The notes beneath the pieces are model-generated. The model was not told the origin of the DNA and searched no databases. It saw nothing but the letters and a program-made list of their open reading frames with translations. A DNA stretch of 44,921 nucleotides, taken from positions 1 to 44,921 of the forward strand of contig NZ_AQOR01000033.1 of the NCBI RefSeq assembly GCF_009846755.1, given 5' to 3'. This DNA is from Alcanivorax sp. S71-1-4. GTDB lineage: Bacteria; Pseudomonadota; Gammaproteobacteria; Pseudomonadales; Alcanivoracaceae. Both the position numbers and the translations under genes were made by a program. This document shows positions 2,296 through 19,308 of the stretch, in pieces (within the stretch, counting starts at the first letter, position 1; each line of letters opens with the position of its first letter).

Positions 2296-3162
2296 TCACA
2301 TTGCGGCCAGGGCCTCTTCGGGCGGGGCATACCAGTAGGAACTGTTGACCGGCGTCGAGAACTGGGTCAGGCGATCCTGCACCTTGTCGTCATTCAGGGC
2401 GAACATGCGGCGCAGCAGATAGTCGAGCCGCGACTGTTCACAGCAGAACGCGACAAAATAGCTACCGTGTTCAAGGGTGCCACCGTAGGGGACGCTGCGA
2501 CGCCAGATTTTCTGTGGCACGCCGTCGCGGTCGACATCGGTGCGGCCGACGTGGGAATCGTTCGGCATGCGCTCTTCGTCAAATTCCACCGCGTCGGCCT
2601 TGGTGCGACCGAAGACATTTTCCTGCTCACTGACCGGCAATTGTTCAAACGCCGCCAGGTTGTGCACCCATTTCTGCGTCAGCACAAAGCTGCCACCGGC
2701 ACCCGGCTGTCCGTCCGGCACCAGCGCCGCCAGCCTGGCCTTGTCACCCACCGGGTTGCCGATACCGTCGACAAAGCCGGTCAGGTCACGCAGATCGTGG
2801 TACACGAACGCATCGATTTCCAGTTGCTGCCGGAACGCCTGGCTCACGGTCAGATGCGCAGCACGGGCCACATCGAAGGCATGGCTGCGGTCGGCGGCCT
2901 GCACCCACACCAGCAGATCGGCCTGTGTCGCCGGCACGCGCCCATCCAGCGAGAACGCCTCGAAATCCACCTGCCCATCCAGCTGGCGCCACAGCGCCGG
3001 CCCGAAGGCCACCGTGATCACGGCGTTGTCCTGGTATTGCGCACGCAGCGTCAACAGCGCCTTGACGGTCTGCCTGGCCTTGTCACTGTCTTCCATGAGG
3101 TATTCGAGAAACACCTGGTCACGAAAACGCTTGTCAAAAATCCCCGGCTGGAAACTGCTCAC
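2296..3162 (-). CDS. DyP-type heme peroxidase
   Basis: Dye-decolourising peroxidase, a heme enzyme that oxidises bulky substrates with H2O2. The 288-residue protein has the family's GxxDG motif (GFVDGIGNP, catalytic Asp about 132), the proximal heme ligand His about 204 (NDSHVGRTD) and a distal Arg near 221-222 (RRSVPYG). It has no signal peptide or Tat motif, so it is probably cytoplasmic. I chose the GTG at 3162 (VSSFQPGIFD) because GGGGGAG lies 8 bases upstream; an in-frame ATG at 3204 would add 14 unlikely residues. It is 90 bases downstream of the carboxylase gene, in the place usually held by allophanate hydrolase. Read-through from that operon is possible. The physiological substrate is unknown. 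Confidence 0.9.
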   Translation of the reverse strand: MSSFQPGIFDKRFRDQVFLEYLMEDSDKARQTVKALLTLRAQYQDNAVITVAFGPALWRQLDGQVDFEAFSLDGRVPATQADLLVWVQAADRSHAFDVARAAHLTVSQAFRQQLEIDAFVYHDLRDLTGFVDGIGNPVGDKARLAALVPDGQPGAGGSFVLTQKWVHNLAAFEQLPVSEQENVFGRTKADAVEFDEERMPNDSHVGRTDVDRDGVPQKIWRRSVPYGGTLEHGSYFVAFCCEQSRLDYLLRRMFALNDDKVQDRLTQFSTPVNSSYWYAPPEEALAAM

Positions 3163-3236
3163 CCGTCGTGCTCCCCCTGATCTGGACGGCGACAACAATA
3201 GCAACGGCGGGCAGGCATCGCCAGCCTCAACAGCAG

Positions 3237-3252: not shown

Positions 3253-6200
3253 TTACCCCTCCTCTCCGGCCAGCACGAGCATCGCCTGCCCCGGTGTCAC
3301 CGGCGCCCCCGGCGACACCAGTACCCGGCGGACACGGCCGGCCACCGGCGCGGAAACCGGAATTTCCATCTTCATGGATTCAATCACGGCGACAGTCTCA
3401 CCCGCACACACCGTCGCGCCTTCGTCGACGGTCACCTGCCAGATACTGCCGGGCACATGACTGTCGATGGTGCGCTCGCCCTCCGCCAGCACCAACGCAT
3501 CCTCCGGCGCGATCTCCGGCTCGCCGGGGCTGACCACATCTTGCCCCGCCTCGGCCCAGCGCTGCCGTTCTTCTGCAAACGCCTGGCGCTGATGGCTGCG
3601 GAAAGACTCGATCTGCGCCGCGTTGTCGGCCAGGAAGCGGTTGTAGTCGCGCAGGCTGAAGGTATCTTCCTCGATCTTCAGGCCGGCACGGCCACGGGGA
3701 AAATCCTCGCGCAGTTGCATCAGCTCGTCATGACTGACCTCGTAGAAGCGCAACTGGTCGAAAAAGCGCAACAGCCACGGCTGGTCCTGCTGGAATTCGG
3801 CCGTTTGCTTCCAGGTATTCCACATCTGCACCGTGCGGCCCACAAACTGATAACCGCCCGGCCCTTCCATGCCGTACACGCACAGATAGGCGCCGCCGAT
3901 GCCGACCGCGTTCTCCGGTGTCCAGGTGCGGGCCGGGTTGTATTTTGTTGTGACCAGGCGATGACGCGGGTCCAGCGGCGTGGCCACCGGCGCGCCCAGA
4001 TACACGTCACCCAGCCCCATGACCAGATAGCTGGCGTCGAATACCGTGCGTTTCACCGCGTCGATGTCCGCCAGCCCATTGATGCGGCGAATGAACTCCA
4101 GGTTGCTCGGACACCAGGGCGCGTCCTGGCGTACCGACTGCATGTATTTCTCAATCGCCAGCCGACATTGCTCGTCATCCCATGACAACGGCAGGTGCAC
4201 GATGCGTGTCGGGACTGTCATGTCATCAATGTTGCCCAGGGCATGCTCGGCCTCACACAGGGCATCCAGCAGTGTGTCCCGTGGCAGGTGCAGGTTGTCG
4301 TAATTCACCTGCAGGGAGCGGATACCGGGCGTCAGTTGCAGTACCCCCGGCAGTCGTGCCTGTTCCAGCCACTGCATCAGCGCGTGCACGCGGAAACGCA
4401 GGTTCAGGTCGAGCACCTGTTCGCCGTATTCCACCAGAATGTTGTCGTCACCGGAGACGCGGTAGACCACACCCACCGGGTGTTCCTGCACGCTCAGTGT
4501 GCGCAGCACCGGCGTGACCGGCCTGACAGCCTGGATCATCGGCGCTGTCACCGGCGACAGTGTTTCCACCTGCTGCCGTTGCAGGCGTTCGAGCTGTTCG
4601 GCGTCCTGTTGCGACACCGGCACGAAACGTACCGTGTCACCGGGCCGCAATTGCCCCATCTGCCACAGGTCAGCGCGAATGATGGTCACAGGGCAGACAA
4701 ACCCGCCCAGGCTGGGGCCGTCCGGCCCGAGGATCACCGGCATGTCGCCGGTAAAATCCACCGCCCCGACGGCATAGGCGTTGTCGTGGATATTCGACGG
4801 ATGCAAACCCGCTTCACCGCCATCGGTGCGCGCCCACTGCGGCGTCGGGCCAATCAGGCGTACGCCGGTACGGCTGGAGTTGTAGTGCACGGCCCAGTCC
4901 GTGCCGAGCAGCATGTCGATGTCTTCCGGCGTAAAAAAATCGGGGGCTCCATGTGGACCGTATATGACGCGCAAGTTCCAATGATGCGTCAGCGCCGGAC
5001 GCAGCGCCTCCGGCAGGCAAGTGCGCGCCACGGCAGGGTTGTCCGCCCGGCAATGCAGCACGTCACCGGGGCGCAATGCGCGGCCGCCGTGGCCGCCAAA
5101 GCCGCCCAGCGTAAAGGTGCTGGCACTGCCCAGATAATCCGGCACATCCAGGCCGCCAGCCACGCACAAGTAGGTGCGGCTGCCGGCGCCCTGGACGGCG
5201 CCGAGTGTCAGCACAGCGCCGGCAGGCACTTGCAGCACTTGCCAGTTGGCGACGGTTTCACCGTCGATCGCCGCCTGCATGTCGGCGCCGGCAAGCACGA
5301 TGCTCGCTGGCTGGCGGAACTTGAGCGTGGCGCCGGTCATGGTCATTTCCAGCCCCGGCGCGCCCGGTGCGTTGCCGAGCAGCGCATTGCCCAGCCGCAG
5401 CGCCATGTCGTCGAACGGGCCGGACGGCGGCACACCGATATTCCAGTAGCCCACGCGGCCAGGCCAGTCCTGTACCGTGCTCTGGGTGCCGGCGTCCAGC
5501 ACTTCGATGCCTCGCGCGGCGAAGGCAAAATCGTTCAGGTACGCCGTGTTCTGCCGGCCTTCGGCAAATACTGCATCGTTGAGGATGGCCCCCAGATAAA
5601 CCCGGTTGGTTTCCAGGCCGGTCAGCACCGTCTGTTGCAACGCCTCCCCCAGGGCCCGGCGGGCACTGTCACGGTCAGCCCGATGTACGATCACCTTCGC
5701 CAGCATCGGGTCGTACAGGGCCGGCACCTCGGTGCCGGATTCCACCCAGGTGTCGCAACGCACACCCGGTGGCCACTGCACGGCGGTGAGACGTCCGGCA
5801 CTGGGCTGAAACCCCCGCGCCGGATCCTCGGCATAGACGCGCACCTGGATCGCATGCCCTTGCGGTGCGTGCTGATAGCGCTGCAGGAAATCCCGCTCCC
5901 CGGCCGCCAGCCGGATCATCCAGCCGACCAGATCAACGCCGGTGATTTCCTCGGTGACACCGTGTTCCACCTGCAGGCGCGTGTTCACTTCCAGAAAATA
6001 AAACGCCTGCTGCCGGTCGTCGTAGATAAATTCCACCGTGCCGGCAGAGCGATAACCGATGCTTTCGCCAAGCCGCACGGCGGTGGCCATCATTGCCTCG
6101 CGCAATGCTTGCGGCAGGTTTGGCGCCGGCGCTTCCTCCACCACTTTCTGGTTGCGGCGTTGCAGAGAACAGTCGCGTTCGCCGAGCGCCACGACATGAC

Positions 6201-6852
6201 CGGCGCCATCACCGAAGATCTGAACCTCGATATGCCGGGCGTGCTGCACGAATTTTTCCAGGAACAGGCCGTCGTTGCTGAAGTTGTTGCGGCTCAACCG
6301 CTGCACCGACGCGAACGCCTCGGACAGCTGCGCGGCATCGAAGCAACGCTGCATGCCGATGCCGCCGCCCCCGGCGGTGCTCTTGAGCATCACCGGATAA
6401 CCGATACGTTCGGCTTCGACGAGCGCTGCGTCCACATCGGCCAGCAAACCCGAGCCGGGCAGCAACGGCACCGCACTCTTTTCCGCCAGTGCACGGGCGG
6501 TGTGCTTGAGGCCAAAGGCTTCAATCTGATCCGGTGCCGGGCCGATAAACACAATGCCGGCGGCTTCACAGGCCGCAGCAAAAGTCAGGTTTTCGCTGAG
6601 AAAGCCGTAGCCGGGATGAATCGCCTCGGCGCCGCTGTCGCGGGCCGCCGCCATCACCTTGTCGATATTCAGATAGGTGTCGCTGGCGCTGCCCTCGCCC
6701 AGGCAGATGGCTTCGTCCGCCTGCTGGACATGCAACGACCCGGCATCGGCGCGTGCGTACAGGGCCACCGACGGAATACCCATGGCTTTGAGGGTGCGGA
6801 TAATGCGGCAGGCTATGGCACCGCGGTTGGCAATCAGCACTTTACTGAACAT
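3253..6852 (-). CDS. Biotin-dependent guanidine carboxylase (commonly annotated urea carboxylase)
   Basis: ATP- and biotin-dependent carboxylase of about 1,199 residues. Domains in order: biotin carboxylase (1 to about 450, starting MFSKVLIANRGAIACRI, with the ATP-grasp loop KSTAGGGGIGMQ), KipA/AHS2-like part (from about 460, STVQDWPGRVGYWN), KipI/AHS1-like part (from about 800), and a C-terminal biotinyl domain with biotin-lysine motif ESMKM (Lys about 1161). The upstream guanidine-I riboswitch and the two DUF1989 neighbours point to guanidine as substrate, giving carboxyguanidine. In the carboxyltransferase part it reads GGYQFVGRTVQMWN, where I recall true urea carboxylases having Asp in place of the final Asn (about 1012). 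Start: ATG 6852 preferred over GTG 6858. It is the last gene of the operon; no allophanate hydrolase follows or is fused. Confidence 0.9.
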   Translation of the reverse strand: MFSKVLIANRGAIACRIIRTLKAMGIPSVALYARADAGSLHVQQADEAICLGEGSASDTYLNIDKVMAAARDSGAEAIHPGYGFLSENLTFAAACEAAGIVFIGPAPDQIEAFGLKHTARALAEKSAVPLLPGSGLLADVDAALVEAERIGYPVMLKSTAGGGGIGMQRCFDAAQLSEAFASVQRLSRNNFSNDGLFLEKFVQHARHIEVQIFGDGAGHVVALGERDCSLQRRNQKVVEEAPAPNLPQALREAMMATAVRLGESIGYRSAGTVEFIYDDRQQAFYFLEVNTRLQVEHGVTEEITGVDLVGWMIRLAAGERDFLQRYQHAPQGHAIQVRVYAEDPARGFQPSAGRLTAVQWPPGVRCDTWVESGTEVPALYDPMLAKVIVHRADRDSARRALGEALQQTVLTGLETNRVYLGAILNDAVFAEGRQNTAYLNDFAFAARGIEVLDAGTQSTVQDWPGRVGYWNIGVPPSGPFDDMALRLGNALLGNAPGAPGLEMTMTGATLKFRQPASIVLAGADMQAAIDGETVANWQVLQVPAGAVLTLGAVQGAGSRTYLCVAGGLDVPDYLGSASTFTLGGFGGHGGRALRPGDVLHCRADNPAVARTCLPEALRPALTHHWNLRVIYGPHGAPDFFTPEDIDMLLGTDWAVHYNSSRTGVRLIGPTPQWARTDGGEAGLHPSNIHDNAYAVGAVDFTGDMPVILGPDGPSLGGFVCPVTIIRADLWQMGQLRPGDTVRFVPVSQQDAEQLERLQRQQVETLSPVTAPMIQAVRPVTPVLRTLSVQEHPVGVVYRVSGDDNILVEYGEQVLDLNLRFRVHALMQWLEQARLPGVLQLTPGIRSLQVNYDNLHLPRDTLLDALCEAEHALGNIDDMTVPTRIVHLPLSWDDEQCRLAIEKYMQSVRQDAPWCPSNLEFIRRINGLADIDAVKRTVFDASYLVMGLGDVYLGAPVATPLDPRHRLVTTKYNPARTWTPENAVGIGGAYLCVYGMEGPGGYQFVGRTVQMWNTWKQTAEFQQDQPWLLRFFDQLRFYEVSHDELMQLREDFPRGRAGLKIEEDTFSLRDYNRFLADNAAQIESFRSHQRQAFAEERQRWAEAGQDVVSPGEPEIAPEDALVLAEGERTIDSHVPGSIWQVTVDEGATVCAGETVAVIESMKMEIPVSAPVAGRVRRVLVSPGAPVTPGQAMLVLAGEEG

Positions 6853-6932
6853 GGTCACTGTCCCGTGACGGGCGCAGGTCGTCCTGCGGTGGTTCCGGCA
6901 CGCCGGGCCGTCCCGGCGGCGTTCGTTCTGTG

Positions 6933-7577
6933 TTATTCCGCGGCCCAGACCAGCATTTCGATCGGGGTCGGGTTGTAGGCGTTGCAGGGGTTGTTCAACT
7001 GCGGGCAGTTGGACACCAGCACCAGCACGTCCATCAGCGCGCGCAACTCAACGTATTTGCCGGCACCGCTGATGCCATCGGCGAACGTGAGACCGCCCTC
7101 GGGTGTCACCGGGACGTTCATGAAGAAGTTGATGTTGTGGGTGATGTCGCGCTTGCTCAGGCCGTATTGCGGGTGCTCGCTCACGGCCAGCAGGTAGCTG
7201 TCGCGGCACGCGTGCATGCCTTTCTTTTCCCGCGCGTAGCGCACCGTGTTGCTTTCGGTGGCGCAGGCGCCGCCGAGCGTGTCGTGCCGCCCGCAGGTGT
7301 CGGCAATGATCTCCAGCATCGGGTTGGCCTGGGACGACAGCAGGCGGGTGCCGGTGCCCAGGTACAGGTTCTGCTGGGCCTGGATGGTGTTCATGGCGCT
7401 GTAGTGTTCTGCCGGGTCACGGGCGTTGAAAAACAGCGTGTCCGCCGCCTGGTTGCCTTCCAGATCATGGATGCGCAGCACTTCGCCGCATGTCACTTCA
7501 TACAGCCAGTAATCACCAGCGCCAACCACCTCGCGGTAGCGGGCCTGTGTCGGGTCGCGATGGCTTTCACGCAGCAT
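6933..7577 (-). CDS. DUF1989 protein, probable carboxyguanidine deiminase subunit (UAAP2/CgdB-like)
   Basis: A 214-residue DUF1989 protein of the type called urea-carboxylase-associated protein 2. With its partner it is known from guanidine-degrading bacteria as a carboxyguanidine deiminase, converting carboxyguanidine to allophanate and ammonia. Conserved stretches seen: [45 protein letters not shown] and [17 protein letters not shown]. The ATG at 7577 overlaps the TGA of the upstream DUF1989 gene (TGATG), implying translational coupling and equal output of the two subunits; an upstream in-frame start at 7598 would overlap by 22 bases. The role rests on family knowledge and context. Confidence 0.85.
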
Positions 7578-8299
7578 CAGTGGTGTCCTCCGCAGCATTG
7601 ACCGGCGTACAGCGCGGTATTGATGAAGCCGCGACGGTTTTCGTCGCAGCCGGCATCCGCCAGCGGCGCGACGCCTTCCAGCAGTTCGAAACGCACCGGG
7701 CCGGCGGGGTACTCGGACGCCATGTCCAGCGGATGCGGGCAGGTGTGCAAGACCACCAGTGTGTCCATGTCAAACCGCAGTGAGATTGTCTCGCCCGCTT
7801 TCGAGGCACCGGCGACGTGCGTCAGGTTGCCGTCGGCATCAGGCGCCACTTTGCTGAACAGATTCAGGTTGGCAACGATGTCGCGCCGGTCGAGGCCGTA
7901 TTTGGCCAGCTCAATCAGGAAGCCGTCGCGGCCGTTACGGTGCATGCCGTTGCGGGCCGTCTGGTAGTCCAGCGCGCCCCAGCGCTCGGCCACCGTCTGT
8001 TTGTCACAGGTGCCACAGACGCTGTCGTGCCAGCCGAGGCTGTCCTCGACGATGGTGCAGAACACGCGCCCCATGTCGGAATACAGCGCGTGCCCTTTGC
8101 CCAGCAGAAAGGTGTGCTGGCATTTGAGCGTGTCGGGAATGTTCAGACGCTCCAGCAGGTTGTACGGGTTGAACAGCAGCATGCCGACATTGGCGCCGCC
8201 GCGTATATCGGTCAGCCGCAACGTGTGGCCACGCCCCACTTGCAGGGACCAGTGGCAGCCGGCGCCAAGGGTATCCTGATCCAGAATGGTTTCGCTCAT
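7577..8299 (-). CDS. DUF1989 protein, probable carboxyguanidine deiminase subunit (UAAP1/CgdA-like)
   Basis: A 240-residue DUF1989 protein (urea-carboxylase-associated protein 1 type), partner of the downstream 214-residue paralogue. Visible conserved parts: [50 protein letters not shown] and TCPHPLDM. Cys/His-rich spots (CGTC, CPHP, terminal CCGGHH) could bind a metal, but I cannot prove which residues are ligands. It starts at ATG 8299, overlapping the ATPase stop as TGATG. It sits between the transporter genes and the carboxylase, the usual order of the guanidine operon. Expected to be cytoplasmic. Confidence 0.85.
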
Positions 8300-9105
8300 C
8301 ACACCGCTCCCTTGACGGTTTTTTCAGACAGGAACTGGCCTGTGGCCTGCACCGAGCGGGTCACCCGGGAGAGGGTATCGGTGTCGCGCCGGCCGATCGG
8401 CAGGTCGAAGGTGATGGTGGCGCCATAGGCCCCCGGCACCTGCGGGTCCAGGCGCACCTTGTCGAATACCAGCAGGCGCGTGCCGAGGGAAAAACCTTCT
8501 TTCAGGTCATGCGTCACCATGAACACGGTGAGGTGATTTTCTTCCCACAAGCGCAACACCAGCTCGTGCATGTCGGCACGGATGCCGGGGTCCAGTGCAC
8601 CGAAGGGTTCATCCAGCAGCAACACGCGTGGCTTCATGATCAGCGCCTGGGCAATGGCCAGTCGCTGCTGCATGCCGCCGGAGAGTTCACTGGGGTATTT
8701 GTGCAGCACGTGTTGCAGCCCCACCTGCGTGAGGATGTGTTCCGCCGCTTCGCGAATGGCCTTGCGCCCGGCGCCCCAGGTGCGGCCGAGAAAACGGCTT
8801 TGCTGCAACTCCGGCCCGAGCATCACGTTGCGCAATACGGACAGGTGCGGGAACACCGAATAACGCTGGAACACGATACCGCGTTCCGGCCCCGGCTCGC
8901 GCGGCATCGGCTTGCCGTCCATCAGCAACTCGCCGCTGCTGGGTTGCTCGTCACCGAGCAACATGCGCAGGAACGTGGTCTTGCCGCAGCCGGAGGTGCC
9001 GACCAGCGTGCAGAACTCGCCGGCTTCCACATTCAGGTTGAGTTTTTCCAGCACCACGGTGTCGCCATAGCGCTTCCACAGTTGACGTACTTCGATCAGG
9101 CTCAT
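8299..9105 (-). CDS. ABC transporter ATPase, NitT/TauT type (guanidine uptake)
   Basis: Nucleotide-binding subunit of 268 residues, with Walker A GTSGCGKTT (about 38-46), signature LSGGMQQR, Walker B VLLLDEPFGALD and the switch His in VTHDLKEG. It belongs to the nitrate/taurine/sulfonate importer class. The start ATG at 9105 overlaps the permease stop (ATGA), and its own stop overlaps the next gene. The C-terminus (about 230-268) is longer than the core fold and contains FDLPIGRRDTDTLSRV. Operon position between permease and deiminase subunits, plus the upstream riboswitch, implies that it powers guanidine import together with the binding protein encoded at 12972. Confidence 0.9.
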   Translation of the reverse strand: MSLIEVRQLWKRYGDTVVLEKLNLNVEAGEFCTLVGTSGCGKTTFLRMLLGDEQPSSGELLMDGKPMPREPGPERGIVFQRYSVFPHLSVLRNVMLGPELQQSRFLGRTWGAGRKAIREAAEHILTQVGLQHVLHKYPSELSGGMQQRLAIAQALIMKPRVLLLDEPFGALDPGIRADMHELVLRLWEENHLTVFMVTHDLKEGFSLGTRLLVFDKVRLDPQVPGAYGATITFDLPIGRRDTDTLSRVTRSVQATGQFLSEKTVKGAV

Positions 9106-9926
9106 GCGTTGCGCTCCTGTCCGGCGTGAAACCAGGGGAACATCAGCTGCGAGGTCTTGCGCAGGCCCAGGTCCATGACCCAGGCCAGCAACGTGATCCA
9201 GAGCACGTACGGCAGGATGACATCCATCGACAGGTAGCGGCGCACCAGGAAGATGCGATACCCGAGCCCTTCGGTGGCGGCGATGGCTTCTGCCGCAATC
9301 AGAAACAGCCAGGCCGATCCCAGGCACAGACGGATGACCGACAGCAGGCGCGGCAACACCTGCGGCAGCACGACGCGCAGCATCAGATGCCAGCTGCTGC
9401 CGCCCAGGGTCTGCAACTTGATGGCCTGCTCCGGTGGCAAATCCAGCACACGCTGAGTCATGTCACGGATCATCACCGGCGCCGTGCCGATCACAATCAA
9501 CACCACTTTCGACAACTCGCCCAGGCCGAACACGATGAACAGAATCGGCAGGATCGCCAGCGGCGGCACCATCGACACCACCGCGACCACCGGCCCGGCA
9601 ACGGCGCGCGCCAGCGGCAAGGTGCCGAGCAGTACGCCGGCCAGCAACGCCATGGAGGCCGAAATGCCTATGCCGATCAGCAACCGCTGCAGGCTCGCAG
9701 CGGTATCACTCCAGAAAATGTACTCACCGGAACGGCGGTCTTCCTCAAACGCCAGCCGCTGCACGGCGTCGACCATGCTCTGCATGCTCGGCAGCAGTTT
9801 GTCGTTGGGGTTTTCCGCCAGCCGCGCGTCCGAGGCCGTCATGTACAGCAGCAACAGCGCGATAAAAGGCAGCAGCGCCAGCAGCACGGCCAGCGGACGT
9901 TGAGGGCGCAGATTCATCAGGCGCAT
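9102..9926 (-). CDS. ABC transporter permease, NitT/TauT type (guanidine uptake)
   Basis: Inner-membrane permease of 274 residues with about six hydrophobic segments; the first is LAVLLALLPFIALLLLYM. The coupling-helix region characteristic of BPD-type permeases is seen at KLQTLGGSSWHLMLRVVLPQ. I choose the ATG at 9926 because GGGAGG lies 7 bases upstream; ATG 9917 and an upstream start at 9950 are alternatives. It is the first full gene behind the guanidine riboswitch, after a 26-codon open frame that overlaps its start. The binding protein that normally accompanies this permease is absent here and lies 3 kb away on the other strand. Confidence 0.88.
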   Translation of the reverse strand: MRLMNLRPQRPLAVLLALLPFIALLLLYMTASDARLAENPNDKLLPSMQSMVDAVQRLAFEEDRRSGEYIFWSDTAASLQRLLIGIGISASMALLAGVLLGTLPLARAVAGPVVAVVSMVPPLAILPILFIVFGLGELSKVVLIVIGTAPVMIRDMTQRVLDLPPEQAIKLQTLGGSSWHLMLRVVLPQVLPRLLSVIRLCLGSAWLFLIAAEAIAATEGLGYRIFLVRRYLSMDVILPYVLWITLLAWVMDLGLRKTSQLMFPWFHAGQERNA

Positions 9927-9997
9927 CGGCGCGCCTCCCGATGCGGGCACGCACCTGTCGCGGAAAAACGGATACTGCGCGGGAAGTGTACCGACAT
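9917..9997 (-). CDS. Short leader open frame before the permease (26 codons)
   Basis: Between riboswitch and permease, an ATG at 9997 has an unusually strong ribosome site (GAGGAGGAGAGG). It opens a frame of 26 residues, starting MSVHFPRSIRFSATG, whose TGA falls 10 bases inside the permease gene. The permease's own ribosome site lies inside this frame, so translation of the leader could help expose or couple permease initiation. The peptide has no recognisable family. It may be a real leader, or the scar of a first gene that moved away (the binding protein usually sits here). Confidence 0.4.
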   Translation of the reverse strand: MSVHFPRSIRFSATGACPHREARRCA

Positions 9998-10091
9998 GCC
10001 TCTCCTCCTCGGTTTACACGGTGACCGGAATGCGAGGGAACCTGTGAATAATTCCCTGGGTGTACAGCGTGGAAAATCGTTCTGCGATCTT

Positions 10092-10197
10092 CCCTGGTCT
10101 CCCGGGCTTTTATCCCGCCGTGTAACCCCTCTGGAGGAGAGGCCGGTGACTCTCGGACCAGTCACTGCGTTGGCAGCCGGAACCCTAGTCACCCTGA
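10092..10197 (-). promoter_or_regulatory. Guanidine-I (ykkC) riboswitch
   Basis: Read on the minus strand, three conserved blocks of the ykkC/guanidine-I aptamer appear in the right order and spacing: CTAGGGTTCCGGC (10188-10176), ACTGGTCCGAGAG (10162-10150) and GGGATAAAAGCCCGGGAGA (10116-10098). These are the hallmark sequences of the guanidine-binding class. It lies 95 bases upstream of the leader frame and about 165 upstream of the permease. Downstream, AGGGAA (in the end of the aptamer and again near 10050) can pair with TTCCCT, a possible expression platform. I could not assign a clear intrinsic terminator. Guanidine binding is expected to turn the operon on. Confidence 0.93.
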
Positions 10198-10251
10198 TGC
10201 TGTACGGGGCGCACCAGAACTCATCCGGTGCGCCGCATTCAGGCAGGCGGT

Positions 10252-10267
10252 TGCAGGTTCCATGCCA
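10252..10267 (-). promoter_or_regulatory. Sigma-54-type promoter for the guanidine operon
   Basis: The minus strand reads TGGCATGGAACCTGCA, matching the -24/-12 consensus TGGCACG-N4-TTGCA with GG and GC at exact spacing and two mismatches. It lies about 55 bases before the riboswitch aptamer, so transcription would start near 10240 and include it. Confidence 0.55.
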
Positions 10268-10316
10268 GCGCGAAAGCACGGTGTGACACGGGCCAAGTCG
10301 CGCTGCCGCCAAGGAC

Positions 10317-10337
10317 GCCGCACCGTTCGGGTGCGGC
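10317..10337. promoter_or_regulatory. NtrC-like palindrome (or terminator of the hydrolase gene)
   Basis: A perfect 8-bp inverted repeat GCCGCACC/GGTGCGGC with a 5-base centre contains GCACC-N5-GGTGC, close to the NtrC enhancer pattern. Two further TGGTGC half sites lie at 10338-10356 on the minus strand. It is 50-70 bases upstream of the sigma-54-like promoter. It could equally be the terminator of the gene ending at 10359, but no T run follows. Confidence 0.4.
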
Positions 10338-10358
10338 ACCACCTTTTCTGCACCACAA

Positions 10359-11372
10359 TCAGGCAGCCTCATGCAGAAGCCCCTCCAGCGCGCCGAGGAT
10401 CTGTTGCATCGCGTCAGCGGAACGGCCAGGACCGCCGCCGCAGTGGCCCCAGTCCGTGGTCAGTAACCGGTAACGGGCACCGGGCATCTGCGCCGCATCC
10501 CGGGCTATTTCATCGGGCACAAAATACAGATCCGAGCTGGCCGGCATGATCAGCGTCGGCGCACGCATCGCGCCCAGCGCCGCCGCATAGTTGCCGGCAA
10601 ATACCGGGTTATCGCTGATGTCGCCGGTGTACCAGGTGTCCATCACCGCCAGCAGATCGTGCGCGTCCTGTTGCAGATGATCCTGCTCCCACCAGCTCAG
10701 CAACGCCTCGCGGGAGCCAAAGCCCAGTTCGCGCCAGCACTGCCTGCGCCAGAACGGTGCCGCATAGGCCCAGCTTGCATAGACGCGCGCGAACGCGCGC
10801 AACCCGGCACGCGGCACCTCGCCACGCCGGTAACGCGGGTCCGCTTTCAGCGCTGATGACACGCCGGCAAGAAACTGCTGATTCAGCGGATGGCACCGCG
10901 CACTCGCGCACCAGGCCGCCACCCGCTGCACGCGCTCGGGATACAGACATCCCCATTGCAGGCTTTGCATGCCCCCCATCGACCAGCCCGCCACCAGCGC
11001 GAGCTGATAGTCACCGGCCAGCTCACCGAGCATCAGGTGCTGCGCGCGCACCGCGTCGTACAGGCTGACGCCCGGCCACTGGTCGCCACGTTGCGACGGG
11101 TGCGCATTGGACGGCGAGGTGGATTCGCCGCTGCCGAACAGTGCCGGGATGATGACGGTATAGCGCGGGTCCTCCAGCGGGCCTTTTTCCGTCAACGGAC
11201 GATTGCCCGCACAACGACCGCCGTAATAGGTGGGCAGCAGCACCAGTTCGGTGCCCGCTGCCCCGATCTCGCCCCGCTGCTGGTAGCGAATGCGTGCATC
11301 GCGGAGCACCTCGCCGTTCTGCAACAGCAAGTCACCGAGCATGAATTCTTTCGTAACCCATTGAACGTTCAT
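10359..11372 (-). CDS. Alpha/beta-hydrolase of the homoserine O-acetyltransferase (MetX-like) family
   Basis: A 337-residue cytoplasmic alpha/beta-hydrolase fold protein. The nucleophile elbow GWSMGGMQ gives Ser about 131, and the rest of a catalytic triad is plausible at Asp about 281 (MPASSDLYFVP) and His about 310 (TDWGHCGG). Overall it resembles MetX-like acyltransferases and their hydrolase relatives, but true MetX function is not shown: there is no methionine gene nearby. It is transcribed away from the glutamine synthetase gene; the two share a 143-base control region with a palindrome. Possible roles include hydrolysis of a nitrogen-containing amide or ester, which is speculation from context only. 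Confidence 0.75.
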   Translation of the reverse strand: MNVQWVTKEFMLGDLLLQNGEVLRDARIRYQQRGEIGAAGTELVLLPTYYGGRCAGNRPLTEKGPLEDPRYTVIIPALFGSGESTSPSNAHPSQRGDQWPGVSLYDAVRAQHLMLGELAGDYQLALVAGWSMGGMQSLQWGCLYPERVQRVAAWCASARCHPLNQQFLAGVSSALKADPRYRRGEVPRAGLRAFARVYASWAYAAPFWRRQCWRELGFGSREALLSWWEQDHLQQDAHDLLAVMDTWYTGDISDNPVFAGNYAAALGAMRAPTLIMPASSDLYFVPDEIARDAAQMPGARYRLLTTDWGHCGGGPGRSADAMQQILGALEGLLHEAA

Positions 11373-11410
11373 GATTTGCTACTGCTCCCTCACCCGCGCA
11401 CCGACGTTAT

Positions 11411-11436
11411 ATATGCATGCTGGCATGTATATTGAA
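11411..11436 (+). promoter_or_regulatory. Palindrome and sigma-54-like promoter before glnT
   Basis: ATATGCATGC-TG-GCATGTATAT (11411-11432) is a near-perfect inverted repeat, suitable as an operator for a dimeric regulator such as the TetR encoded downstream. Overlapping it, TGGCATGTATATTGAA (11421-11436) fits the sigma-54 promoter spacing exactly, with GA instead of GC at -12. Both lie about 80-105 bases before the glnT start. The two readings compete or may work together. Confidence 0.4.
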
Positions 11437-11515
11437 TGCATCAGGACAAGGCGGATGGAAGAACCGTGCCAACCCCGCACCACCGCCGCACACCCATCTT
11501 GAGGAGAGCAGTCCG

Positions 11516-12874
11516 ATGAGCAGCAGCCCCGTTTCAGATTCCCTTCGGCAAACACTGGAAGCCGACGGTGTGAAGTACGCCATGGCCGGCTACGTGGACA
11601 TCCACGGCTGTATCAAAGGCAAGTTCGTTCCGCTGAAACACCTGGGCAACATGCTCGGTGGCTCTGAGCTGTACACCGGTGCGGCGCTGGATGGCGTACC
11701 GCAGGACATCAGTGACAACGAAGTGTCGGCGGTGCCCGATCCGGCGTCGGTGATGCAGTGTCCGTGGCAGCCGGAACTGGCCTGGTTCGCCAGCAACCTG
11801 CATCTCGACGGTGCGCCGTTCGACGCCTGTTCACGCAACATACTGCGCCGCCAGCTCGATGAAGCCGCGAAGATGGGCTACACCTTCAATCTGGGTATCG
11901 AGACAGAATTTTTCCTGTTCCGGGACCAGGGTGACGGCACCTTCGGCCCGATCAGCGACCGCGATGCCGGCGAAAAGCCCTGCTATGACCCGCGCACCCT
12001 GATCGACAACCTGCCGATCATGGACGAGCTGGTCAGCGCCATGAACACGCTGGGTTGGGATGTGTATTCGTTTGACCACGAGGACGCCAACGGCCAGTTC
12101 GAAACCGATTTCACCTATACCGACGCGCTGACCATGGCCGACCGGCTGACCTTTTTCCGGTTGATGGCGGTAGAGATCGCGCGCAAGCACGGCGCCTTCG
12201 CCAGCTTTATGCCGAAACCGTTCGCCAACCGCACCGGCAGTGGCGCCCACTACAATATGTCACTGGCGGATATCGACACCGGCCGCAATCTGTTCGCCCC
12301 GGACGGCGATGACCTGCACGACTGCGGCATCTCGAAGCTCGCCTATCACTTCACCGCCGGCGTGCTGCGCCATGCGCGCGCCATCAGTGCCGTGATCGCG
12401 CCCACCGTGAACAGCTACAAGCGGCTGGTGCGCCAGGGTTCCATGTCCGGCTCCACCTGGGCGCCGGTATTTGTCTGCTACGGCAACAACAACCGCACCA
12501 ACATGATCCGCGTCCCCGGGGCTGGCAGCCGCATTGAATGCCGTGCGGCTGACATCAGCTGCAACCCCTATCTCGGCGCCGCACTGATCCTTGCCGCCGG
12601 CCTGGAAGGCGTGCGCGAACAGCTCGACCCGGGCGCGCCACGGCGCGAGAACATGTACCGCTACAGCGACGCGCAGATCGCAGAGATGGGCGTGCAGTTC
12701 CTGCCACGCACGCTGGGCGAGGCGGTGGAGGCCTTCGAGGCCGACCCGCTGGCACGCGAGGTATTCGGCGACGCCATGTTCAAGGCGTTCGTGGAATTCA
12801 AACAGGCCGAGTGGGAGAGCTACCACACCGCTGTCTCGGACTGGGAGATCAAGCGCTACCTGAAGATGTTCTGA
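11516..12874 (+). CDS. glnT: Type III glutamate-ammonia ligase (glutamine synthetase family)
   Basis: A 452-residue enzyme of the proteobacterial type III (GlnT) glutamine synthetase family, which ligates glutamate with ammonia or a small amine using ATP. Motifs seen: VDIHGCIKGKFVPL in the N-terminal beta-grasp region, GIETEFFLF (metal-binding Glu residues), FMPKPFANRTGSGAHYNMSL, NSYKRL, and the C-terminal RIECRAADISCNPYLGAAL. In GSGAHYNMSL the second His of the usual GSGMHVHQS is replaced by Asn, as is normal for this subfamily. Start ATG 11516 has GAGGAGAG 7 bases upstream. It is followed after 97 bases by the binding-protein gene, linking ammonia fixation with guanidine uptake. Other amine substrates cannot be excluded. 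Confidence 0.88.
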   Translation: MSSSPVSDSLRQTLEADGVKYAMAGYVDIHGCIKGKFVPLKHLGNMLGGSELYTGAALDGVPQDISDNEVSAVPDPASVMQCPWQPELAWFASNLHLDGAPFDACSRNILRRQLDEAAKMGYTFNLGIETEFFLFRDQGDGTFGPISDRDAGEKPCYDPRTLIDNLPIMDELVSAMNTLGWDVYSFDHEDANGQFETDFTYTDALTMADRLTFFRLMAVEIARKHGAFASFMPKPFANRTGSGAHYNMSLADIDTGRNLFAPDGDDLHDCGISKLAYHFTAGVLRHARAISAVIAPTVNSYKRLVRQGSMSGSTWAPVFVCYGNNNRTNMIRVPGAGSRIECRAADISCNPYLGAALILAAGLEGVREQLDPGAPRRENMYRYSDAQIAEMGVQFLPRTLGEAVEAFEADPLAREVFGDAMFKAFVEFKQAEWESYHTAVSDWEIKRYLKMF

Positions 12875-12971
12875 GGCCACCGTCTCGCCCGCTGGCGCAG
12901 AACTTGCAGCCACCCGGGCGAGCGATCCATTGATCAACGACTTGCGCAGCACCGACACCTGGAGGTTCACC

Positions 12972-14060
12972 ATGCGACATCCTTCCCGCACCCGCACCCG
13001 CACCCGTGCCCTGCTCTGCGGCCTGCTGGCCGCCGTGCTGGTGGCCCTGTCACCGGCAGCGGTCTCCGCCGAGAAGAAAAGCTTCCGCATTGCCTGGAGC
13101 ATCTACGCCGGCTGGGTCCCCTGGCACTACATCAAGGAATCCGGCCTGATGAAGAAATGGGCCGACAAGTACGGCATCGAGGTCGAGATCGTGCAGATCA
13201 ACGACTACATCGAATCCATCAACCAGTACACCGCCGGTGAATTCGATGGCGTGACACTGACCAGCATGGACGCGCTGTCGATCCCTGCGGCCAGCGGCGT
13301 GGACACCACCGCCCTGCTGATCGGCGACTACTCCAATGGCAACGACGGTATCGTGTCAAAAACCGCCACCAGCATTGAGCAGCTCAAAGGCACCCACATC
13401 CACATGGTGGAACTGTCGGTGTCTCACTACCTGCTGGCCCGCGCCCTGGATGACGCCGGCCTGCGCGAGCGTGACGTCACCATCGTCAACACGTCCGATG
13501 CCGATATCGTTTCCGCCTTCCAGACCCGCGACGTCACCACCGTGGTGACCTGGAACCCGCTGCTGGACGAAGTCGCGTCCAGGCCCGGCTCGCATCGCCT
13601 GGTGGATTCAAGCAGCATTCCGGGCCACATCAAGGACCTGACCGTGGTCAACACCGACACGCTGCGCGACAACCCGGCCCTGGGCAAGGCGCTGGCCGGG
13701 GCCTGGTACGAGATGATGGCGGACCTGGGTGCCGACACCGAGACCGGTATCGAGATGCGCGAGTTCCTGGGCACCGTCTCCGGCACCGACCGTGCCGGCT
13801 ACGAAGCACAGCTGGCTGGCATGCACATGTTCTGGAAACCGACGGATGCCCTGGCGTTCTACACTTCCGAACAGGCCTTCGGGGCCATGGACAGCGTGCG
13901 CCATTTCTCCTTTGACCACGGCCTGCTCGGCGAAGGCGCCAGCGATGCGGACTTTGTCGGCATCAGCTTCCCGGATGGCAAAGTGCTGGGCGACAACGGC
14001 AATATCAAGCTGCGTTTCGACACCACCTATACGCAGATGGCCGCTGACGGCACACTGTGA
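12972..14060 (+). CDS. Periplasmic substrate-binding protein of the guanidine/urea-carboxylase ABC transporter
   Basis: A 362-residue periplasmic protein of the NitT/TauT binding-protein class. It resembles the family found beside urea/guanidine carboxylase genes. A signal peptide (about 1-33, LLCGLLAAVLVALSP then VSA) ends before EKKSFRIAWSIYAGWVPWHY. Aromatic-rich spots such as WSIYAGWVPWHY and MFWKPTDALAFY are candidate cation-binding surfaces. Start ATG 12972 follows GGAGG; an upstream ATG at 12930 would spoil the signal peptide. It is almost certainly the partner of the permease and ATPase at 8299-9926, yet lies on the opposite strand behind glnT, an unusual split. A CACCCG triplication encodes RTRTRT at its N-terminus. 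Confidence 0.85.
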   Translation: MRHPSRTRTRTRALLCGLLAAVLVALSPAAVSAEKKSFRIAWSIYAGWVPWHYIKESGLMKKWADKYGIEVEIVQINDYIESINQYTAGEFDGVTLTSMDALSIPAASGVDTTALLIGDYSNGNDGIVSKTATSIEQLKGTHIHMVELSVSHYLLARALDDAGLRERDVTIVNTSDADIVSAFQTRDVTTVVTWNPLLDEVASRPGSHRLVDSSSIPGHIKDLTVVNTDTLRDNPALGKALAGAWYEMMADLGADTETGIEMREFLGTVSGTDRAGYEAQLAGMHMFWKPTDALAFYTSEQAFGAMDSVRHFSFDHGLLGEGASDADFVGISFPDGKVLGDNGNIKLRFDTTYTQMAADGTL

Positions 14061-14124: not shown

Positions 14125-14739
14125 ATGCGAAAGACCCGCGAAGACACGGAAAAAACCCGCCTCGGTGTGATCGCCGCCGCCCTGAAACTGTTCAGCAGCA
14201 ACGGCTATTCCCGCACCACACTGAACATGATCGCCGCCGAAGCCGGCTTCAGCCGCGGGCCGATCTACTGGCACTTCCGCAACAAGGACGAACTGTTCGA
14301 AGCCGTGCTGCACTATTCGCAGCAACCGTTGCAGCAACTGATCGAACAGGCGCAGGCCTGCCCCGATCCGGTGGCCGGCATCACCCTGTTTATCGATGAA
14401 TGGTTCCGCTTGCTGGTGGAGGACCGCTGGTACCGGCAATCGTTCGAAATCCTGCTCAACAAGACTGAACTGACCGACAGCATGGCCGCCACCATCCGCC
14501 GCGAACGGCAACTGACGCGCAATATGGTGGAGATGCTCTCAAAGCGACTGACGGAAGCCGCCGACGCCGGTCAGTTGACACTGACCGACCCGGCGGAGGA
14601 CGTGGCCTTGCTGCTGTATACCACGCTGATGGGCATTACCCAGAGCTGGCTGTTCTCACCCAGGCTGTTCTCCCTGGCACACCAGGCGCCGTTTTTCCGG
14701 CGCCGGTTGCTGGCAATGGCCGGACATGGTGGGCCGTAG
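14125..14739 (+). CDS. TetR/AcrR-family transcriptional regulator
   Basis: A 204-residue TetR-type repressor. The DNA-binding helix-turn-helix lies at about residues 30-65 (RTTLNMIAAEAGFSRG then IYWHFRNKDELFEAVL). The ligand domain resembles AcrR/NalD-like proteins (FIDEWFRLLVEDRWYRQSF). I place the start at ATG 14125 (MRKTREDTEKTRLG), 64 bases after the binding-protein stop; the upstream part of the frame overlaps that gene and is not coding. No drug-efflux genes are adjacent, so it may control the glnT/binding-protein unit. Its stop codon TAG is formed by the left end of the palindromic repeat that starts at 14736, so the original C-terminus may have been longer. Confidence 0.88.
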   Translation: MRKTREDTEKTRLGVIAAALKLFSSNGYSRTTLNMIAAEAGFSRGPIYWHFRNKDELFEAVLHYSQQPLQQLIEQAQACPDPVAGITLFIDEWFRLLVEDRWYRQSFEILLNKTELTDSMAATIRRERQLTRNMVEMLSKRLTEAADAGQLTLTDPAEDVALLLYTTLMGITQSWLFSPRLFSLAHQAPFFRRRLLAMAGHGGP

Positions 14740-14947
14740 GGTGGGTAGAGCCAAAGGCGAAACCCACCACGTCCATGCCCGTTATTCACTCCCGCAAAAT
14801 CATCGAAACCACCCCCATTGCAGCCAGGACAGTACCTTCTCCAACGGCAGGCAGTGTTGATTGTGCAGAGGGTTGCTTCGCCGGTTTTGTGCGAGCAGTG
14901 CGTGACATGGACGCGGTGGGTTTCGCCTTTGGCTCTACCCACCCTAC
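14736..14947. repeat. Dispersed palindromic (MITE/REP-like) element, copy 2, 212 bp
   Basis: Same ends as the other copies. The outer arms pair perfectly over about 33 bases (GAGCCAAAGGCGAAACCCACC faces its exact complement near 14910-14940). The centre differs from the 169-bp copies: about 40 extra bases around 14810-14880. It provides the stop codon of the TetR gene and is followed after 9 bases by a second, unrelated hairpin element. Confidence 0.9.
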
Positions 14948-18944: not shown

Positions 18945-19139
18945 TTCTCCTACAGCGATGGGGCGCAATCACTGACACGCCCCGTCGCTCCCGCCCGACA
19001 GACGCCACGGCACGACATCCACACACTGTTCCTCCTGCAACAGGAGCCGTGCATGGATGCACACGACGATGACGATTCGACGCCATCCAGATGACGCCCC
19101 ACCACCAAGACAGCGCCCCCTTACACCCCGCATTGGGCG

Positions 19140-19308
19140 GTAGGGTGGGTAGAGCCAACGGCGAAACCCACCATGTCCATGCTCGTTAATCACTCCCGCA
19201 AAACTATCGAAACTGTCCTGCCTCGGGGGTCGGTAGTTTCGCTGGTTTTGTGCGAGCAGTGTGCTGCCTGGACATGGTGGGTTTCGCCGTTGGCTCTACC
19301 CACCCTAC
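19140..19308. repeat. Dispersed palindromic (MITE/REP-like) element, copy 3, 169 bp
   Basis: Same length and layout as copy 1. Its arms carry paired differences from the other copies: GAGCCAACGGC faces GCCGTTGGCTC where copy 2 has GAGCCAAAGGC facing GCCTTTGGCTC, and CACCATGTCC faces GGACATGGTG where copy 1 has CACCGGGTCC facing GGACCCGGTG. So substitutions on one arm are matched on the other. The flanks 18945-19139 and 19309-19426 contain no recognisable gene. Confidence 0.9.

Follow-up and report, generated by a model that had tools for sequence, protein, structure and literature searches.

A probable guanidine operon with two riboswitches

The 44,921-nucleotide contig NZ_AQOR01000033.1 of the gammaproteobacterium Alcanivorax sp. 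S71-1-4, which we analyzed over its entire length (hereafter the window; the genome has 4.18 Mb), very probably carries a guanidine-assimilation operon equipped with two riboswitches. The operon lies on the minus strand. An aptamer of the Guanidine-I class (presumably ykkC subtype 1) stands at its head and is followed, in this order, by genes for an ATP-binding cassette (ABC) permease, an ABC ATPase, two distinct DUF1989 proteins of the UAAP1 and UAAP2 families, and a carboxylase. A second riboswitch, of the Guanidine-II class (mini-ykkC), follows the second DUF1989 gene and directly precedes the carboxylase start. Both RNA elements were located by an Rfam covariance-model scan of the whole window on both strands, and genes were assigned with NCBIfam (TIGR) and Pfam models at their curated cut-offs (Table 1).

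A preliminary description of this DNA had claimed a Guanidine-I aptamer at 10092-10197 in front of transporter, DUF1989 and carboxylase genes. The covariance model confirms the aptamer to within 5 bases, well above its gathering cut-off, and family models recognize all of the genes behind it on the same strand. The Guanidine-II element, the lack of binding-protein and allophanate hydrolase genes in the operon, and an adjoining cassette with a glnT gene are additions of the present analysis.

We propose the following scheme. Guanidine would be imported by the ABC transporter and carboxylated by the 3253-6852 enzyme with ATP and biotin, and the two DUF1989 subunits would deiminate the carboxylated product to allophanate. 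An allophanate hydrolase, whose gene lies on another contig next to that of a separate urea carboxylase, would then cleave the allophanate. The two riboswitches, of different class, would both sense guanidine: the bound Guanidine-I aptamer most likely frees a Shine-Dalgarno sequence that is otherwise covered by its P2 strand, and Guanidine-II likely gates translation of the carboxylase gene. The binding protein required for uptake may be supplied by the neighbouring divergent cassette of glnT, a substrate-binding protein (SBP) gene and a TetR-type regulator gene. That genes named after urea serve guanidine is a known annotation correction, applied here to a genome whose separate urea carboxylase provides a built-in contrast. 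Two predicted features look unusual, the expression platform of Guanidine-I and the place of the binding-protein gene.

Table 1. Coordinates of the riboswitch elements, operon genes and cassette genes in the window
Feature	Position	Strand	Evidence or remark
Guanidine-I (presumed ykkC subtype 1) aptamer	10097-10199	-	RF00442, 93.3 bits, gathering 63, E 9.2e-16, full model 1-107
CCTCTCCTCC, P2 5' strand and loop, predicted anti-Shine-Dalgarno	10133-10142	-	Exact complement of 9999-10008; paired in minimum-energy fold
CCGTGTAA, complementary to conserved aptamer core TTACACGG (10118-10125)	10014-10021	-	Leader fold
GGAGGAGAGG, Shine-Dalgarno of first open frame past aptamer	9999-10008	-	Unpaired probabilities from fold ensemble
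26-codon open frame with strong Shine-Dalgarno sequence, overlapping permease start; coding status unproven	9917-9997	-	Similar frames in relatives
ABC transporter permease (TauC/SsuC type)	9102-9926	-	PF00528; top NCBIfam match TauC, under cut-off
ABC transporter ATPase	8299-9105	-	PF00005
CgdA-like carboxyguanidine deiminase subunit (UAAP1, DUF1989), putative	7577-8302	-	TIGR03425, 300 bits, cut-off 206; PF09347
CgdB-like carboxyguanidine deiminase subunit (UAAP2, DUF1989), putative	6933-7598	-	TIGR03424, 323 bits, cut-off 285; PF09347
Guanidine-II (mini-ykkC), two hairpins, loops ACGG and ACGA	6874-6917	-	RF01068, 35.8 bits, gathering 32; E 2.7e-5 for genome
Likely guanidine carboxylase (annotated urea carboxylase)	3253-6852	-	TIGR02712, 1860 bits, cut-off 1304; Asp701, Asp951
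MetX-like alpha/beta hydrolase of cassette	10359-11372	-	PF00561; PRK07581, 309 bits, slightly below cut-off 332
GlnT, type III glutamate-ammonia ligase / glutamate-methylamine ligase-like	11510-12874	+	TIGR03105, 573 bits, cut-off 470
Substrate-binding protein, 'urea carboxylase region' ABC family, outside riboswitch operon	12930-14060	+	TIGR03427, 511 bits, cut-off 334
TetR-family regulator behind binding-protein gene	14125-14739	+	PF00440, PF08361

Guanidine, not urea, as the likely substrate

The NCBIfam names of these genes (urea carboxylase, urea amidolyase associated proteins, putative urea ABC binding protein) would argue for a urea carboxylase operon in which the riboswitch merely co-senses a related compound. 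We consider this highly improbable. Guanidine carboxylases are told apart from urea carboxylases by an Asp at position 1330 of the K. lactis enzyme, which is position 701 of TIGR02712; a second conserved Asp, at K. lactis 1584 or TIGR02712 position 956, is required (PMC11410670). In the window enzyme, Asp701 and Asp951, numbered from GTG 6858, align with K. lactis 1330 and 1584, so that an Asp is found where a urea carboxylase would have Asn.

We compared this position across 81 TIGR02712 rows from 75 related genomes, 75 of which were read at residue 701 (the unread rows are G003:C7, G005:C4, G020, two G045 pieces and G040:C88, where G numbers stand for genomes and C numbers for contigs). The split follows the riboswitch in every case: Asp is present in each of the 45 carboxylases from riboswitch operons and Asn in each of the other 30. 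One of the 45, from G004, is counted on a presumed linkage, its riboswitch and carboxylase lying on separate contigs. The window's own genome holds an Asn701-type paralogue on another contig (C44:12959-16552, within stretch L136, C44:9000-19006), that is, a separate urea carboxylase, and this paralogue adjoins the sole allophanate hydrolase gene above cut-off in the genome (C44:16609-18291). Since the Asp701/Asn701 split tracks riboswitch operons, guanidine is the likely substrate of the 3253-6852 enzyme and urea is rejected; guanidine riboswitches of two classes ahead of the operon and of the carboxylase likewise speak against urea. The preference for guanidine voiced in the preliminary description is thus supported. 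Its remark that automatic annotation misses the system holds for NCBIfam alone, which returns 'urea carboxylase' and 'urea amidolyase associated protein', but not for Rfam, which finds both riboswitches.

The presence of Asp- and Asn-type carboxylases in one genome points to two sister enzymes, through which the cell seems to handle guanidine and urea, respectively. We infer that the two would share one allophanate hydrolase. No match to urease alpha was observed in the window's genome. The two DUF1989 subunits exceed the curated cut-offs of TIGR03425 and TIGR03424, in agreement with the pair already recognized in the preliminary description; their putative CgdA-like and CgdB-like names are assigned here by these models. 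As to gene starts, the carboxylase most likely begins at ATG 6852 and not at GTG 6858, because relatives open with ATGTTC or ATGTTT there. The permease reading frame spans 9102-9950 on the minus strand, and its most likely start is ATG 9926.

In two other guanidine operons, L227 and L256, the match to the carboxylase lies between cgdB and atzF and is limited to about residues 450-1106 of 1201; the carboxylase there is possibly split or shortened.

A conserved Guanidine-II element before the carboxylase

The Guanidine-II element is recurrent. A hairpin pair of the GGACGRCC type precedes the carboxylase in 42 of 45 loci, with the exact pattern in 41 and one base changed in L142; L174, L176 and L180 have no pair at this place. 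The stems covary: among 21 distinct pairs, the four positions of the first stem are paired in 21, 21, 21 and 17 (shuffled means 16.7, 11.4, 16.5 and 11.6) and those of the second stem in 21, 21, 20 and 16 (shuffled means 19.3, 19.3, 14.5 and 12.5). We therefore reject the notion of a chance match, given both the common location and the covariation. In a wider set of named loci, the best 80 of at least 568 found, the Guanidine-I core pattern occurs at 62 loci and the Guanidine-II pattern at 52, with 38 having both, and shuffled loci yield the Guanidine-II pattern in 0 of 80.

Guanidine-II is likely a second, translational gate on the carboxylase, and its position just before the start codon is consistent with this role. 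A point against it is that the lowest-energy fold already contains both hairpins, with no switch seen.

One other Guanidine-II match in the genome lies above the cut-off (C45:175402-175450; 150 of 624 candidates were scored), and further matches are weak and under the cut-off. It stands ahead of a gene resembling SugE exporters, which scores 88 bits, below the cut-off of 126 of its model. This element and the SugE/Gdx-like small exporter gene (C45:175402-175780; L003 1501-1879) form a probable export arm for guanidine.

Possible action of Guanidine-I on ribosome access

Apart from the aptamer at 10097-10199, no RF00442 match in the genome reaches E <=0.001. In its alignment to the model, CUAGGGUUCCG, CUGGUCCGAGAG, CACGG and the GGGAUAAAAGCCCGGGAG stretch agree with the consensus; its assignment to subtype 1 as opposed to the subtype-2 pockets for ppGpp, PRPP or NDP, a distinction with A46 as a marker (PMC6031431), is tentative.

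Guanidine-I is usually a transcriptional ON switch, which is a usual and not a defining trait (PMC12186494), and a transcriptional mode is presumed for the Vreelandella boliviensis operon (PMC12508155). The substrates may thus be as proposed, with Guanidine-I controlling transcription by intrinsic or Rho-dependent termination in place of ribosome access; this is a serious contender, to which we give somewhat less than an even chance. Termination by Rho would leave no conspicuous trace in the DNA, and a loose scan flags terminator-like sites in 11 of 93 leaders, including those of all four Marinobacter loci. Conversely, the usual platform, an intrinsic terminator, is not encountered in the window leader: no terminator-like site is present on the operon strand at 9900-10420, and only 1 of 42 leaders (the window and fetched relatives) has a run of at least 5 T between aptamer and start codon.

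The predicted fold of the window leader pairs the P2 strand and loop with the Shine-Dalgarno sequence, and the conserved core with a complementary segment just upstream of it (Table 1). Pairing of the core of this TTACACGG/CCGTGTAA type also occurs in the G006, G007, G010 and G016 leaders. The unpaired probability of the Shine-Dalgarno sequence is 0 in the free ensemble; when the aptamer is enforced it rises to 0.91-0.99 at eight of the ten bases, the remaining two having 0.07 and 0.10. Together, the absence of a terminator and a P2 strand complementary to the Shine-Dalgarno sequence suggest translational control by Guanidine-I.

Comparison among leaders lends further weight to ribosome access over termination. 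For the swap test, L142 was removed (the pattern had caught a second CCGAGAG) and one more leader was lost to a length filter, leaving 91 leaders and 56 representatives. In these, P2 strands and Shine-Dalgarno sequences from the same leader pair with a mean energy of -15.5, versus -12.9 for swapped partners, and none of 20,000 permutations reached so low a value. Fold tests used 89 leaders (four of the 93 were skipped; L142 was kept with a wrong segment and scored as not paired to P2). The Shine-Dalgarno sequence pairs with the P2 segment at a probability above 0.5 in 52 of the 89, versus 83 of 267 with swapped segments, and in 32 of the 37 leaders of the window's family.

Several observations weigh against this translational model. 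The 37 family leaders are related sequences, and outside the family the pairing is seen in 20 of 52, a fraction barely higher than that of the swapped control, and in none of the 7 Azospirillum leaders. In the swap test, the partner from the same leader ranks first in only 2 of 56 cases by strand or 4 of 56 by Shine-Dalgarno sequence, and it falls in the top tenth in 14 of 56, with 5.6 expected. The free fold, at -94.7 kcal/mol versus -73.8 kcal/mol with the aptamer enforced, lies 21 kcal/mol lower, too large a gap for the ligand to reverse, and the choice of fold must therefore be assumed to be co-transcriptional. In many leaders, the segment downstream of the aptamer suffices by itself to occlude the Shine-Dalgarno sequence, and a strict two-state criterion selects only 1 of 89 leaders. 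Within the set of 42 made up of the window and its fetched relatives, the loose scan mentioned above flags 4 leaders, that of the window not being among them. Against the overall proposal stands that no sigma-70-like promoter was found at 9900-10420 or 11350-11560.

Taken alone, the Shine-Dalgarno model of Guanidine-I has in our view about an even chance of being correct. We restrict it to the window's family, because leaders from the wider Proteobacteria support the pairing only weakly. Our literature search, which did not extend to the original Guanidine-I paper, recognized no published translational Guanidine-I; the window gives a testable case of such an action.

A binding protein outside the operon, in a glnT cassette

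In 36 of 48 genomes with Guanidine-I (G004 being read on stretch L139), a TIGR03427 binding-protein gene directly follows the riboswitch on the same strand. The window departs from this arrangement, as do G006, G010 and G016: a short frame of 26, 25, 18 and 18 codons, respectively, takes this place, in each case preceded by a strong Shine-Dalgarno sequence and overlapping the start of the permease gene. The idea that the window's frame is a remnant of a binding-protein gene draws no support from the three operon binding proteins with readable ends, which end differently. The window's TIGR03427 gene is found on the opposite strand, in a divergent cassette with a gene for a MetX-like hydrolase on one side and glnT, the binding-protein gene and the TetR gene on the other.

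The same cassette is present elsewhere in the genomes G032 and G038, and the fetched part of it in G040 comprises glnT, the binding-protein gene and the TetR gene; the operons of all three are devoid of a binding protein. G030 has a binding protein both in the operon and in the cassette, the cassette copy being in two pieces, and G009 has an unlinked binding protein and no cassette. In a tree of 90 binding proteins (13 loci were dropped as duplicates of fetched genomes, as were matches shorter than 280 residues or containing a stop), the 11 cassette proteins, 4 of them from Marinobacter, form one group with a support of 98. The cassette type thus recurs in both Alcanivoracaceae and Marinobacter. 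In all four Marinobacter loci, a Guanidine-I operon has the gene for this type of binding protein after its carboxylase gene, and a TetR gene behind that; two of these loci also have glnT and the MetX-like gene alongside, followed by a second Guanidine-I and a permease gene. We tie the cassette to guanidine because these loci place its binding protein in Guanidine-I operons. The Rfam scan of the window found no riboswitch ahead of glnT.

Other glnT-like genes, with 52-53% identity, occur between transporter and deiminase genes in L196, L212, L217, L227 and L256, where the ABC binding protein, when seen, is only about 28-31% identical to that of the window. Divergent glnT-like genes lie near two more loci, L267 (54%) and L215 (in part, 47%).

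The best match of GlnT among solved structures is a glutamate--methylamine ligase (9qur, 419 bits). One may hence imagine that the substrates include alkylated guanidines or amines and that the cassette handles nitrogen derived from methylamine or methylguanidine, guanidine being one input of several. In line with this, a Guanidine-II that does not discriminate against methylguanidine is described in a guanidine operon with demethylation genes (PMC12508155). We find this extension rather unlikely: TIGR03105 names GlnT a type III glutamate-ammonia ligase, and the capture of ammonium itself would be a simpler role. As a possible partner of guanidine uptake, the cassette is absent from the titles and abstracts returned by our literature search, none of which linked a guanidine riboswitch or carboxylase with glutamine synthetase, or guanidine with gamma-glutamylmethylamide synthetase.

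Bringing these elements together, we tentatively put forward, with less confidence than in the operon itself, that in Alcanivoracaceae Guanidine-I may be a translational switch with the P2 strand of the aptamer as anti-Shine-Dalgarno, that two ribosome-access gates of unrelated RNA class may operate at two genes, and that the glnT-TetR cassette may tie guanidine uptake to the synthesis of gamma-glutamyl (methyl)amide or glutamine.

Comparison with published systems

Guanidine operons with two riboswitches have been reported in V. boliviensis, with in-line probing and guanidine binding at 44 and 93 uM (PMC12508155), and in three enterobacteria (PMC12186494); the window operon is therefore a new example of a known arrangement. 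As in V. boliviensis, the operon comprises genes for an ABC transporter, cgdA, cgdB and gca, opens with Guanidine-I and has Guanidine-II in the cgdB-gca interval. Unlike its counterpart there, the window operon contains neither atzF nor a binding-protein gene, and its Guanidine-I is not followed by a terminator-like sequence such as the paper presumes for V. boliviensis. The gene after gca encodes a DyP peroxidase in the window, and no gene of the mgdH/mgdL kind is seen in the operon, no search having been aimed at demethylation genes.

In the enterobacterial operons (PMC12186494), as in the window, importer and deiminase genes are under Guanidine-I and the carboxylase is under a Guanidine-II immediately downstream. 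Their allophanate hydrolase accompanies the carboxylase, whereas that of the window's genome lies on another contig beside the urea carboxylase.

A Guanidine-I is also described in Alcanivorax dieselolei, where a gene for a putative urea substrate-binding protein lies downstream of it (PMC9788540). It shares with the window the bacterial family and riboswitch class, and it heads the same kind of operon. By contrast, the window, G006, G010 and G016 have a short open frame behind the riboswitch, with the binding protein in the glnT cassette. The same paper describes a Guanidine-II ahead of a SugE-like gene; the window's genome has one ahead of gca also.

Neighbouring genes and dispersed repeats

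Downstream of the operon lie the DyP-type peroxidase gene (2296-3204) and a gene for a CvfB-like S1 protein (613-1452). We dismissed a match to the Transposase-2 RNA at 8864-8952, which is below cut-off and inside the ATPase gene. An imperfect palindrome of roughly 172 bases is dispersed in the genome, with three copies in the window, at 2116-2290, 14733-14947 and 19137-19308. The genome has at least about 40 full-length places with this sequence (40 of 195 candidates scored), which folds, as DNA, far better than its shuffles (z -13). Two of the copies bracket the stretch from the DyP to the TetR gene that holds the guanidine genes, and another adjoins the SugE-like gene on C45.

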